A model generated the notes under the pieces. That model made no database searches. It was not told where the DNA came from and was given only the letters and a program-made list of their open reading frames with translations. DNA of 64,000 nucleotides from contig JALGPX010000003.1 of NCBI GenBank assembly GCA_023515795.1, positions 111,686 to 175,685 on the forward strand, read 5' to 3'. The position numbers and the translations under genes are program-made. Each line of letters opens with the position of its first letter. Positions within the stretch are counted from its first letter, which is position 1. Origin of the DNA: Amoeboaphelidium occidentale. Taxonomy: Eukaryota; Aphelidiomycota; Aphelidea. Of the stretch, positions 3,424 through 64,000 are shown in pieces.

Positions 3424-5211
3424 ATGGAACAACTAACGGAGAAATGGTTAAAACTGGACAAGAATCCAAAAACAAGAAATGAGATTTTGGAACTTAGAGA
3501 TCAGGGCAATACAGAAGAACTTCTCAGTAGACTATCGAATCCTTTAACTTTTGGAACTTCTGGCTTACGTGCTCAAATGGGAGCTGGTTTCGCTAGAATG
3601 AATGAGTTGACTGTGATACAAGCTACACAAGGAGTAGCAGCATACTTGCTAGAACAAAAGGATATTGACATGAGCAAAGGCATCGTAATTGGTCATGACC
3701 ACAGGCATAATTCTTGGGATTTTGCAAGAGTAACAGCTGCTGTATTCTTATCGAAAGGATTCAAAGTGTACTTTTATGATGAACTTGTTCATACGCCGAT
3801 GGTTCCATTCTCAGTTCTCAAATTCAAAGCTTTGTGTGGTATAATGATCACCGCATCGCATAACCCAAAGGATGATAATGGATACAAACTGTACTGGTCT
3901 AATGGTTGTCAGATCATTTCCCCTATTGATAAGAACATTCAGAAATTAATTGAACGCTACAGTGATGAGGTTTGGATCTGGGACAAGTCTCTAGTTGAGT
4001 CTGATACTAAGAATGTTGTTAAATTGGGACAAGAAACTATTTTCGAGTATATTGGCGCATTGAAGACCAAATTCCCATTAAAAGATTTCAGTGGAGATTC
4101 ATTAATGAAAATTGTTTATACTCCTGTGCATGGCGTTGGATTAAAGTTTGCAGAATTACTCTTCAAAGCGTATGGATTCAAAAAGTTTCTCAGTGTCCCA
4201 GAACAATCCCAGCCAGATCCTTATTTCCCAACTGTTAAATATCCGAATCCCGAAGAAGGCCCAGAAGTACTGGATCTATCCATAAAACTAGCAAATGCGA
4301 ACAATTGCACTCTAATCTTTGCAACAGATCCTGATGCTGATCGTCTAGCAATTTGCGAGCGTATTGGCAGTGAATGGAAAATGCTGAATGGTAATCAAAT
4401 TGGAAGCATTTTAGGAGCTCATCTTTACGAAATGTACAAATCTTTAGATTCCAAGAAGAAATCTAAAGCTGCAATGCTGATCACTACTGTAAGTTCAAAA
4501 TTCCTGCACAAATTGGCAAAAAAGAACAATTTCCTTGTAGAAGAAACTCTAACTGGATTCAAGTGGCTTGGCAATCGTGCTCTAGAACTAATGTCGCAAG
4601 ATCCTAAATATGATGTTTTGTTTGCATATGAAGAAGCAATTGGATTCATGGTTGCTGGAGATATTGTCCCTGATAAAGATGGAATATCTGCTTTACTGGT
4701 AGCATACTCTCTAGCCACAAAACTATATTCAGAAGGAAGAACACTACATGATTACTTGGAACAATTATATCGCGAGTATGGATACTGTTGTTCATTGAAT
4801 TCCTATTTCCGCATAACAAATCCAAAACTTACTCCAGGAATATTCGACAGAATTAGAACCTTCACTGGTGAAGAAAAAGGATACCCTTATTCAATCGAAA
4901 ACTATAGAATCGACAGAGTACGTGATTTATATACAGGATATGATTCTTCAACTACAGACAATTCTACTAAATTACCATCATCTAAATCATCACAAGTAAT
5001 AACATTCTGGTGTACATCTATTGAAGATTCTGACAAAGAATTCACAATAACATTCCGTACAAGTGGGACTGAACCTAAATTGAAGTATTATTCTGAAATT
5101 TGTGGCAATTACGATAAGCGCAATGATTTACAACAAGCCCTAAAACAATTTGTTGAAACGTTTACTTTTAAGCTACTTGAACCAGAATTGAATCTATTGA
5201 AACCAAAATAA
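3424..5211 (+). CDS. PGM2: Phosphoglucomutase/phosphopentomutase, PGM2 type
   Basis: This 595-aa, intronless protein belongs to the alpha-D-phosphohexomutase family. It has the catalytic phosphoserine loop TASHNPK (Ser ~145), the metal-binding loop DPDADR (~302-307), the sugar-binding segments TGFKWLG and EEAIGF, and the phosphate-binding loop FRTSGTEPK near the C-terminus. Length and spacing match the PGM2 branch, which interconverts glucose 1- and 6-phosphate and also acts on ribose/deoxyribose phosphates in the cytosol. All catalytic motifs are intact. The ATG at 3424 is used; an upstream TTG in the same frame is not a plausible start. The gene ends just before the Fanzor relic on the opposite strand. 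Confidence 0.95.
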   Translation: MEQLTEKWLKLDKNPKTRNEILELRDQGNTEELLSRLSNPLTFGTSGLRAQMGAGFARMNELTVIQATQGVAAYLLEQKDIDMSKGIVIGHDHRHNSWDFARVTAAVFLSKGFKVYFYDELVHTPMVPFSVLKFKALCGIMITASHNPKDDNGYKLYWSNGCQIISPIDKNIQKLIERYSDEVWIWDKSLVESDTKNVVKLGQETIFEYIGALKTKFPLKDFSGDSLMKIVYTPVHGVGLKFAELLFKAYGFKKFLSVPEQSQPDPYFPTVKYPNPEEGPEVLDLSIKLANANNCTLIFATDPDADRLAICERIGSEWKMLNGNQIGSILGAHLYEMYKSLDSKKKSKAAMLITTVSSKFLHKLAKKNNFLVEETLTGFKWLGNRALELMSQDPKYDVLFAYEEAIGFMVAGDIVPDKDGISALLVAYSLATKLYSEGRTLHDYLEQLYREYGYCCSLNSYFRITNPKLTPGIFDRIRTFTGEEKGYPYSIENYRIDRVRDLYTGYDSSTTDNSTKLPSSKSSQVITFWCTSIEDSDKEFTITFRTSGTEPKLKYYSEICGNYDKRNDLQQALKQFVETFTFKLLEPELNLLKPK

Positions 5212-42904: not shown

Positions 42905-43829
42905 ATGTCCACTTTTGATACCAGAAAGAAAGAAATACTGGAAAAGATCTCTTGCGGAGTTGATAAGTCATTCAAGCAATGTATTGATGAGAAGGCAATC
43001 CGATTTGTTCAGCTGTTGAATGATAGTCGCGATTGTTACACTACAAGCAGTTGCTCAGGTCGAATCTCTGTACTGCGCCTAGGAAAGCAGATCGTATCTG
43101 ATGAAACGGCTGGTGAGAGAGGCTGTTGGATATTCTCAACTCATGATATTGTCAGTAAAGAAGAAAGCGTGTATTTGGCTGCGTTATTTTCTGATGATTC
43201 TACATGCTGTGATGATGCCACTGGAGAATGCTTCCAAGAAGCTTTTAGCGCATCAAAAGACGAACTTATTTATTTCAAATTTGAACCATTTATTCTACAC
43301 GTTGAATGCAGGGACCAGGCTTCCGCTCAAAAGCTTCNNNNNNNNNNNNNNNNNNNNNTGCTTCCAAGAAGCTTTTAGCGCATCAAAAGATGAACTTATT
43401 TATTTCAAATTTGAACCATTTATTCTACACGTTGAATGCAGGGACCAGGCTTCCGCTCAAAAGCTTCTGCGTTATGCGTTGCAAGCTGGTTACCGGAATT
43501 CTGGGGCAACTATTAGTTCAAGAATAATCGTGGCAATACGGCATACTGCACAGTTAAACGTTCCTATTGCTTTTACTTGTGCGCAGCATCAAAAGTATAA
43601 ATTGCTTGTGCCTGCTCCATACTTATCATTATTACTTGCCAAGGCAAACGAGTTCATGTTAACAAATTTCGAGCGGATGGATGTTTTGTATGAACAATTA
43701 AGTATCATGCTAAGCTCTGGCATAAGCGAGAATGAACCACCGAAAGAGTCAAAGGAGGAGCGCAAAGCTCGTAAAAAGGCTGAGGGACTGCTTAAGCAAA
43801 AACTACTGAAGACTGAATTAGAAGGATAG
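42905..43829 (+). CDS. TYW3: TYW3 wybutosine-synthesis methyltransferase, split by assembly gap
   Basis: The N-terminal part reads DKSFKQCIDEKAIRFVQLLN and TTSSCSGRI, the TYW3 signature. The C-terminal part has AGYRNSGATISS and IVAIRHT followed by a Lys/Glu-rich tail. TYW3 methylates a wybutosine precursor at G37 of tRNA-Phe. Twenty-one Ns (43338-43358) interrupt the gene. The 109 bases before the Ns (43229-43337) are repeated after them (43359-43467) with one mismatch, C versus T. Counting that block once and dropping the Ns leaves 795 bases, a continuous 264-aa frame, so the gene is probably intact and the break is an assembly artefact. Confidence 0.9.
43229..43467. repeat. 109-bp duplication flanking an N gap (assembly artefact)
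   Basis: Copies at 43229-43337 and 43359-43467 are identical except C43261 versus T43391. The 21-base N run lies exactly between them. Unmerged contig ends or two alleles explain this better than a real tandem repeat. Confidence 0.92.
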
Positions 43830-62170: not shown

Positions 62171-63626
62171 CTACTTTCGAAGAGCGTGCCCGGTTTCTTT
62201 AATATGCTGGAACAATTTGTTTCGTGTGGGGAAGGAGGCATGACACACATTGCAAGACTCTCCAGAATTACCAGATTCCTTTTTCTCTTTATCTTTCCTT
62301 CTTCTTTTCTTCTTTTCGGCCTGTGCCTTCTTATTATCCGTCTTCTTGGAGGCGGCCGTTGATTTGGCTTTCTGTAATCTCTCATTCAAACTTGAGCTGT
62401 CAGAATCTGAATTGTCTTCATCTTCTTTGTCTACAGCGCGAGCTTCTTCTTTTACCACGTCATCGTCTGAGTGTTTCTCGCCCTTTTCTTCTTTCTGGTG
62501 ATTCTCCGTAGGTTCAGGTTTATAATCATCATTTGCTTCATCGGTTGCCACCACAGACTCATGATCATCCTCATATTCAAAGTTTAATTCATCAAGTTCT
62601 TGGGCTAATTCATCGTCCTGTCTCATAATTTCCTTCAGCTCCTCGAGTGCTTTCAAATGTTTCTTTGACTTTTCATGGTTTCGTAACTGTTTGTTGGAGC
62701 GAAAGTATTTCTCGCAGACAACACAATAATGCTCATCAGCCTCTTCGTCTTCGTTTTCCTCATCACTCTCAATAAATTCTTTGTATGGCGTCTTTTCTTC
62801 TACCTTCATCCATTCCTGTTCCTCGAAAGTAAAATTCGCCAAGTCCTCCATCTTTTTCTCATAACGCTTTCGGGCTTCGATAGCTGCTTTAGCCTCGTCT
62901 GCCATTCGCTTTTCCTCTTGTAGTTTCTTGTAACGTAAATCTTTCCGCTGGACAAAGTTGGCCAATGCCCGCACGTCGTCATTAAATTCCTTCTTTGCAG
63001 AGTCCCTAGCTTTCTTGTTTTCCTTCTCAGCTTGCCTTCTTATCCTCCTGTTAATGCCAAGATTAAGGTCGTATATGTCACACCATGAGAATGATAATTT
63101 TGTACTGAAGGTTGACCAGAAGGTGTAGAATTGCTTCAGTTCTGCAAACCCAGGAGATGTCGATGTTCCGAAACTTAGCTTAAAATCCAAAACTTTTCCA
63201 TCTTCCAGGGCCTCTTGCTGGAGCAAAGTATCAAATAGATTACGATATACTGTGTAAAAGCCTTTAGGAGAATCATCATAACCATTAAATGCGCTCGTAG
63301 CAAAGTACGGCATAAAGTCTGTCAAAATATCCTGTTCTTTAACCATACTATCCTCTAAATCAATGTTAAATACGCCATAAGGTGTTCGTATTACCTTTTA
63401 ACAGAGAGTTCCTGTGCCTGTCATACCAAGCTCGCTCTTGCGGATTGCTTAGAACCTCGTAAGCTTCTTGAATCGTTCTGAACTTTTCGGTAGCTTCTTC
63501 TACGGAAGCACTGTCTCTAACCTTATCCGGGTGAAACTGCAAAGCGAGTTTCCTATAGCTCTTCTTTATCTCGTCATCAGTGGCTGTTTGTTCAACCGCG
63601 AGGACCTCATAATAGCACGTCTTCAT
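62171..63626 (-). CDS. JJJ1: Jjj1/DNAJC21 J-protein, 60S biogenesis factor
   Basis: Exons 63395-63626 and 62171-63354 join across a 40-nt intron to give 471 aa. The J domain starts [22 protein letters not shown] and has the HPDK motif (QFHPDKVR). A coiled, charged region follows, then a C2H2 finger (CVVCEKYF...H...KKH) at ~285 and a second one near the C-terminus (CNVCHASF...H...TGH), as in Jjj1 and DNAJC21. Jjj1 works with Hsp70 and Rei1 to recycle the Arx1 export factor from pre-60S ribosomes. The ATG at 63626 fits the family better than the upstream one at 63650. It lies ~100 bp downstream of the Fanzor on the same strand. Confidence 0.94.
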
Positions 63627-63751
63627 GTGACGAAAATAAATGGATCGCATTTATTTCATCATATCAATCACACGGGTCCGAAACCAAATAGCCCCTTCAA
63701 CGTGAAATTTAATGATTTTTCGATATAATGCTTTACTTCAGCTAGCCAAGG

Positions 63752-64000
63752 TTATCCACCGACAATGAAGTCGTTTCCCTTGCTTTTTTGTTGTTTCTTC
63801 GTTAGAAAATTAAATGATCTTTTTCCCTTGTTCTCCTCCATGTGAATCAGAATCTTCCTTATGTTGTTAGCAGCGTTGAAGTCGCGATTCCAGCGTATCT
63901 TGCAAGTCTTACAAATTCTCACCTGCCATCTTTTGCCTGCAGGTAACTCGCCTTCACACTGACAGCAAAGTTTGCTTGTACGATGTTCCCAAACCAGACG
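63752..64000 (-). CDS. Fanzor (eukaryotic TnpB-like) RNA-guided nuclease, C-terminal 82 aa
   Basis: The frame enters from the right edge and ends with a TAA at 63752-63754. It begins WEHRTSKLCCQC, the first zinc-ribbon half after the E-x-R-T-S motif, then has a second pair ICKTC, the RuvC-III motif WNRDFNAANNI with its catalytic Asp, and a basic tail with KGKRSFNF. These are the OrfB zinc ribbon and final RuvC motif of TnpB/Fanzor proteins; WNRD-x-NAA is typical of the eukaryotic branch. No stop or frameshift breaks the visible part. Fanzors use a guide RNA, often encoded near the 3' end, to cut DNA. The first two RuvC motifs lie outside the window. Confidence 0.85.
   Translation of the reverse strand, partial: RLVWEHRTSKLCCQCEGELPAGKRWQVRICKTCKIRWNRDFNAANNIRKILIHMEENKGKRSFNFLTKKQQKSKGNDFIVGG

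Follow-up and report, generated by a model that had tools for sequence, protein, structure and literature searches.

Fanzor proteins can be recognized by a fingerprint described by Yoon et al. (PMC10711439; this and the other papers are cited here from excerpts of their text). It consists of DPG in RuvC-I and a glutamate placed six residues ahead of the zinc finger; Fanzor1 is marked in addition by TDG in the WED domain. The wRNA of the S. punctatus system is stated in the excerpts of PMC10432273 to be composed of a 75-nt scaffold at the right end of the element followed by 14-15 nt of the flank. The TAMs given for Fanzor1 in the excerpts of PMC11423790 are AT-rich, i.e. CATA, TTAA and ATN. 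Among the literature matches listed, going by titles and the starts of abstracts, we found no report of gene-end targeting by Fanzors, and nothing relevant to AATAAA-targeted transposition or to a connection of Fanzor with retrotransposons or polyadenylation. No paper mentioning both Fanzor and aphelids was found in the literature searched.

The window, by which we mean the whole stretch of 64,000 nucleotides analyzed, is the end of contig C200 (175,685 bases). The contig stops at base 64000 and the Fanzor gene runs off the assembly. A run of 21 N's at 43338-43358 is an assembly gap within the window. The features of importance for the following are all on the minus strand:

63752..64000, minus strand: Fanzor1 C-terminal coding end, 82 codons and TAA (stop 63752-63754), from the open frame and PF07282; it runs off the contig end.
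63986..63988, minus strand: alternative catalytic Glu codon (E-H-R-T-S), six residues ahead of the first zinc Cys, a motif according to the excerpts of PMC10711439.
63902..63967, minus strand: zinc ribbon, from PF07282, with Cys codons at 63965-63967, 63956-63958, 63911-63913 and 63902-63904.
63881..63883, minus strand: RuvC-III Asp codon of WNRD-x-NAA, from the alignment of copies.
63650..63751, minus strand: 102-nt 3' region including AATAAA, conserved among copies in the alignment; candidate wRNA scaffold.
63650..63655, minus strand: AATAAA at the right end of the element, where the similarity to seven other right ends stops; candidate target motif, start of the target site duplication (TSD), TAM and poly(A) signal.
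63630..63649, minus strand: flank just past the element; putative guide stretch by analogy with SpuFz1 (excerpts of PMC10432273).
63372..63626, minus strand: start of a host gene with a DnaJ domain (PF00226, E=8.1e-27), named Jjj1 in the preliminary description; the ATG is at 63624-63626, 23 bp beyond the element.

The preliminary description had read the right edge of the window as a minus-strand C-terminus of a Fanzor/TnpB protein with 82 unbroken codons and with E-x-R-T-S, zinc-ribbon and WNRD-x-NAA motifs. This reading holds: the frame is open, and the Glu, the four Cys and the RuvC-III Asp can be placed at codon level. The search with a TnpB/Fanzor HMM which it proposed gave a match to PF07282 (Cas12f1-like TNB) of 33.5 bits at a curated cut-off of 26.3 (E=4.6e-8). 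Among the NCBIfam TnpB models the best one reached E=1.3e-6 and 27.9 bits, while the whole-protein cut-off is 100; a score below that cut-off is expected because the window piece is a fragment of the protein. The 82 open codons alone would have a chance of about 2%, an estimate for equal codons, which is unlikely and not decisive. The copy on contig C188 is 94% identical to the window copy across the 82 residues, and this together with the profile match settles the Fanzor C-terminus of the window as real.

In the window copy the Glu stands six residues before the first zinc Cys (E-HRTSKL-C), as the Fanzor fingerprint requires. The RuvC-I motif is GVDPG in the copies on C188, C12 and C29, and TDGVSV is present in C188, C173 and C12 (C29 has TDEVSV). 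The copy on C173 reads VEPG in RuvC-I, i.e. the first catalytic Asp is changed to Glu (L011, minus-strand ORF 3866-4978). The Fanzor identity can thus be narrowed to Fanzor1 by DPG and TDG in the sister copies and by the displaced Glu in the window copy. The best match of the C188 copy (550 aa) to a solved structure is SpuFz1 (8gkh, E=5.8e-6), and the next matches are at E=0.033 or weaker. Other zinc-ribbon families were rejected, as the next PDB match is eIF2-beta at only E=0.033, and a host-domesticated single gene is ruled out by the many copies with element borders. The 82-residue fragment gave no match which could point to a phage origin (tblastn, 50,697 phage records, E<=1e-5). The ratio dN/dS is 0.04-0.36 in 15 of 15 pairs (six copies, C-terminal 59-230 codons, few substitutions), which would be consistent with selection on the Fanzor protein while the family spread. 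The window holds the 3' end of a single copy from a mobile family that encodes Fanzor1. The protein adds a new member to a known family, and the Fanzor reading is ordinary in kind; the unexpected part is not the Fanzor itself but the association of the family borders with AATAAA and host stop codons.

The genome searched consists of 11.31 Mb in 204 contigs and is probably incomplete. PF07282 gave 115 matches at E<=0.01, from which false duplicates at single-N joints were not removed; 84 of them are over the curated cut-off, two only with their neighbours. The matches form several groups, and in the loci compared no DNA match of 250 bases or more connects one group to another. The single N's flanked by duplicated sequence in L010 (C188), L011 (C173) and L071 (C159) are assembly joints. 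Such joints lead to false duplications and to frame breaks inside Fanzor copies, and the counts are therefore somewhat inflated; for the AATAAA-bordered family the false duplicates were not counted as separate copies. Copy counts are at the same time lower bounds, only the best candidates having been scored. Contigs C187, C81, C135 and C34 also end within or beside copies of the Fanzor family of the window, and the repeat therefore probably breaks the assembly. A homologue, P0007, is found on a contig of 111,837 bases which is absent from the copies counted. Its public gene model fuses a long non-Fanzor N-terminal part, with no Pfam domain up to E=0.1, to the Fanzor start, and this is perhaps another insertion behind a host gene.

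A full copy extends from the left end (in C173, about 640 bp upstream of the ATG) through the ORF, which has no visible introns in the open pieces, to the right end about 100-113 nt past the stop. The right borders of all eight Fanzor copies, the window copy included, diverge directly after AATAAA (seven copies) or AATAAG (one copy). Four right ends of the family are at contig ends (C200, C187, C81 and C135), and their left junctions were entered only as inferred pairs. Ten full-length left ends were found, nine by similarity and the tenth by a pattern search after the hypothesis had been formed. AATAAA precedes nine of them, in seven at the same spacing, by eye, from a GTCCTCG core; the tenth (C16:41196) has AATAGA instead. 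No terminal inverted repeats were clear by eye. The left end does not appear to be derived from a tRNA (none in four loci) or from an Rfam family (no match up to E=0.5 in three loci). Short relatives share the left end of the family and carry two other types of 3' end, with AATAAA in six of ten copies of one type and one of two of the other; the remaining five are one base off.

Poly(A)-signal ends were also considered as a general trait of Fanzors in this genome, and this was rejected: three other families (5, 2 and 2 copies) end otherwise, judged by eye. The remaining six aligned Fanzor sets have no clear border. As other Fanzor families end differently, AATAAA has so far been seen only in the family of the window and in its short relatives. 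Another kind of Fanzor, which is short and has DPG and EEYTS, is found in L047 (1038-1794) and also in L048, L051, L053 and L054; presumably it is Fanzor2-like. Its 3' end has a conserved hairpin-like stretch ending GGCAACCTTAG in five of five aligned copies. An ORF which by eye is Argonaute-like (L027, 1-1119) adjoins a copy of yet another Fanzor family.

All ten full left ends are located at, or no more than about 35 nt after, the stop codon of a host ORF on the same strand. In nine of them AATAAA starts between -4 and +32 nt relative to the end of the host stop codon; in the tenth, C16:41196, which as stated was found after the hypothesis was formed, the host stop precedes the GTCC core by 22 nt. 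As far as they are visible, the host frames have 99 to 286 codons; some are cut by the edge of the locus, and the host ORF at C188 is a frame of only 99 codons. One host gene, that at C34, is importin-beta-like (PF25574, E=2.2e-32). Five copies are truncated at the 5' end, and four of these are also at same-strand host stops; the exception is C29 with no host stop nearby, and in C67 the host stop falls inside the first bases similar to the element. AATAAA is missing at the truncated copies on C56 (AATAGA), C67 and C29. With the truncated copies added, a host stop is found at the left junction or directly before it in 14 of 15 cases. It should be noted that the junction sample is partly set by which loci could be retrieved. 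The counts leave out C59, C63, C57, C33, C145, C116, C96:14752 and C150, where the matches are weaker or partial, and C131, where the similarity to the family begins within the host ORF. There a 5'-truncated short relative (L084, L085) seems to provide the stop codon of the upstream ORF, a 131-codon frame.

As a control we used the 25 AATAAA sites of the window which are outside ORFs of at least 100 codons, or near a stop. Nine of these fall in the interval of -5 to +35 nt around the stop of an ORF with at least 99 codons, and the same placement test with TTTATT in the window gave 5 of 25. Compared with this control, which comes from one window only, Fisher's test gives P=5e-4 for the ten full left ends and P=4e-4 for the 14 of 15 left junctions. 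When all 65 AATAAA of the window are considered, nine are near the stop of an ORF of at least 93 codons and 14 near the stop of an ORF of at least 60 codons. In the 60 nt that follow stops, AATAAA shows the strongest enrichment among the hexamers present in at least six ORFs (7 of 33 ORFs, 0.9 expected). ATTTTT comes close to it (6 of 33, 0.9 expected), and the reverse TTTATT occurs there in 4 of 33. The enrichment fits a function of AATAAA as poly(A) signal and does not prove it. That the borders of the family are tied to AATAAA and host stop codons appears as a pattern supported in this genome, with targeting as a candidate mechanism.

The distance from the Fanzor stop to the Jjj1 start had been put at about 100 bp; it is 125 bp when measured from the stop (63752-63754) to the ATG (63624-63626). 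It had further been suggested that a guide RNA would be encoded in or near the Jjj1 promoter. The location is plausible in so far as the guide RNA would be directly 3' of the Fanzor stop, because the 102 nt are conserved (mean column identity of 86% across seven copies) and stand where SpuFz1 has its wRNA. The promoter part of the suggestion has to be modified, as most of the DNA there is inserted element and not original promoter; host DNA seems to be limited to roughly the 23-29 bp that directly precede the Jjj1 ATG. By the same analogy, the candidate scaffold would be within 63650-63751, and the guide would start at 63649 and run into the Jjj1 leader. Folding of the 3' region of three single copies gave no signal against shuffled sequences (z of 0.07, -0.28 and 0.74), and its consensus has no compensatory pair. 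AATAAA is a possible TAM for the family.

The truncated copies begin at about 137, 223, 240, 407 and 747 of the left-end sequence of C34, with no assembly gap at the junctions. Four of the five retain a usual 3' end of the family, and the fifth (C16:7173-7622) ends at an internal AATGAA. Truncation at five different 5' points points to a process which starts at the 3' end, like that of the Chlamydomonas Fanzor1 elements (excerpts of PMC3627910) or like target-primed reverse transcription. Duplications beyond the hexamer are found in C12 (AATAAACGC) and in C173, where the duplication has 20 bp. Two inferred pairs of contigs show them as well: C34/C200 (AATAAATGC...) and C81/C135 (AATAAATAT...). 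With 12 ways to pair the contig-end halves, two or more such matches would arise by chance with a probability of about 0.015. All four cases have in common at least nine duplicated bases, AATAAANNN. The duplication is partial in C72 (12/13) and absent in C188 (which has assembly joints), C159, C162, C194 and C16:41196. On this account the element is not placed here in any transposon class. No mobilizing enzyme with the ends of the family was found in the genome searched.

The reading we prefer, with a probability of about 0.62, is that this Fanzor1 family inserts one-endedly at poly(A) hexamers, with the scaffold in its 3' region and the guide in the flank, and that its nuclease cuts the unoccupied site. 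The element would insert at the poly(A)-signal hexamers of host genes, beginning from its own 3' end, and some copies would consequently be 5'-truncated. At sites with a duplicated hexamer the host gene would retain its AATAAA, and a further one would become available to the Fanzor gene. The 3' region of about 100 nt would be the wRNA scaffold and the host DNA just past AATAAA the guide. The nuclease would cut the unoccupied site, recognized as AATAAA (the TAM) and the flank, and the element would be maintained or spread when the break is repaired from the chromosome that carries it. In the case of the window copy, the unoccupied site would correspond to the intergenic DNA ahead of Jjj1, with the importin-beta gene at the end of C34 probably on its other side. 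A more specific version, which we hold to be doubtful, makes the poly(A) hexamer itself the TAM: by sense insertion into AATAAA behind host stops the host signal would be both duplicated and borrowed, the guide would be directed against the same unoccupied gene end, and one hexamer would be target, poly(A) signal of host and element, and TAM.

The element might instead be a non-autonomous rolling-circle (Helitron2-like) passenger, as was proposed for CRe-1/2/3 of Chlamydomonas, and one-ended transposition would then give the 5' truncations. We regard this as a tentative possibility. The excerpts of PMC3627910 describe for CRe-1/2/3 5' truncation, intact 3' ends, variable duplications of 7-19 bp and a T-rich target preference; 5' truncation and variable duplications are present in the family of the window too, and 5' truncation with a fixed 3' end, a trait of the Helitron2 type, is found in four of the five truncated copies. 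However, a search of the genome, run without a positive control, gave no PF14214 Helitron match, and no shared Helitron ends have been demonstrated.

A second model hypothesizes target-primed reverse transcription of the LINE/SINE kind, in which an RNA with AAUAAA at its end anneals to a nicked TTTATT where a host gene ends and the Fanzor is a passenger. It predicts a fixed 3' end, 5' truncations and variable duplications, which agrees with the five distinct truncations, with the usual 3' end kept in four of those copies, and with the variable duplications observed. Against it, no A-tails are seen at the aligned right borders, and only two RVT_1 matches (C11 and C102) are found in the genome, which is probably incomplete. 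The translation of the one read, on C11, has the look of a Gypsy-type polyprotein, and a non-LTR reverse transcriptase was not recognized there. Furthermore, the 5'-truncated Fanzor1 elements known from the excerpts of PMC3627910 were assigned to Helitrons. We find the model unlikely. The Gypsy-type retrotransposon polyprotein was read from the translation of L083 (C11:1900-4400).

It could also be that the window copy is a dead relic and that the position at gene ends reflects the lethality of insertions elsewhere in a compact genome, i.e. selection and not targeting. About 83% of the window is within ORFs of at least 100 codons on either strand. Several sister copies have stops within the match, some next to assembly joints, and in C173 the RuvC-I Asp is replaced by Glu. 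Selection alone, however, leaves unexplained that AATAAA is found at nine of ten left ends, seven of them at one spacing, and that all ten are in sense orientation; of the 25 AATAAA sites used as control in the window, only 9 follow a same-strand stop. This explanation also seems to us improbable. The least probable is a cut-and-paste passenger of a Mutator-like transposase: it would account for the 9-bp duplication AATAAANNN in C12, C173 and the pairs C34/C200 and C81/C135, the genome has three PF10551 MULE matches, and TSDs of 9 bp are described for MULE-like Fanzor1 elements of three Mucoromycota genomes (excerpts of PMC3627910), but no terminal inverted repeats are clear by eye, the model would not lead one to expect 5'-truncated copies at new sites, and 2.2 kb around one of the three MULEs, whose ends were not identified, has no significant similarity to 14 element stretches. 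A Mutator-like transposase in a 434-codon frame with an internal duplicated stretch is found in L090 (C194:166100-168300).

The preferred reading, one-ended insertion at poly(A) hexamers, bears on how Fanzor elements pick targets without wrecking compact genomes, and on why eukaryotic transposons retain an RNA-guided nuclease. If it is true, the family would follow a safe-harbour strategy in its choice of gene-end signals, and predictions follow for the TAM, which would be all or part of AATAAA, and for the guide of each copy. If confirmed, it would also point to Fanzors that are suited to cutting at the 3' ends of genes.

Compared with the elements known from the excerpts of PMC3627910 and PMC10432273, the family resembles SPu-1/SpuFz1 of Spizellomyces punctatus in being a single-ORF Fanzor1 element with many copies, and, going by the former, in having shorter relatives, the ORF-less "ghosts" of SPu-1. 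The conserved region from the stop to the right end is about 75-80 nt in SPu-1 and about 100 here. Unlike the family described here, with its AATAAA borders and no clear inverted repeats, SPu-1 has inverted repeats of 30-33 bp, putative TA duplications and the TAM CATA. The remaining comparisons are with elements in the excerpts of PMC3627910. CRe-1/2/3 of Chlamydomonas share with the family the 5'-truncated copies, the intact 3' ends and the variable duplications; they differ in that they insert after TTTT and share Helitron ends, and these excerpts describe no link to gene ends. MCi-5 and MCi-2 of Mucor circinelloides are similarly without recognized inverted repeats and of a class given there as unknown. 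Their duplications are AT-rich and of 6 bp (ATTTAT) or 11-12 bp (ATAATTNNNN). They differ from the family of the window in the target sequence, and in that three of five MCi-5 copies carry a Harbinger transposase and MCi-2A a part of a Crypton one. Finally, in CMe-1A/TE-N2 of Cyanidioschyzon merolae, for which those excerpts give no target duplication, the first 635 bp of the Fanzor element match a separate shorter element, and the parallel here is the left end common to the Fanzor copies and the short relatives.
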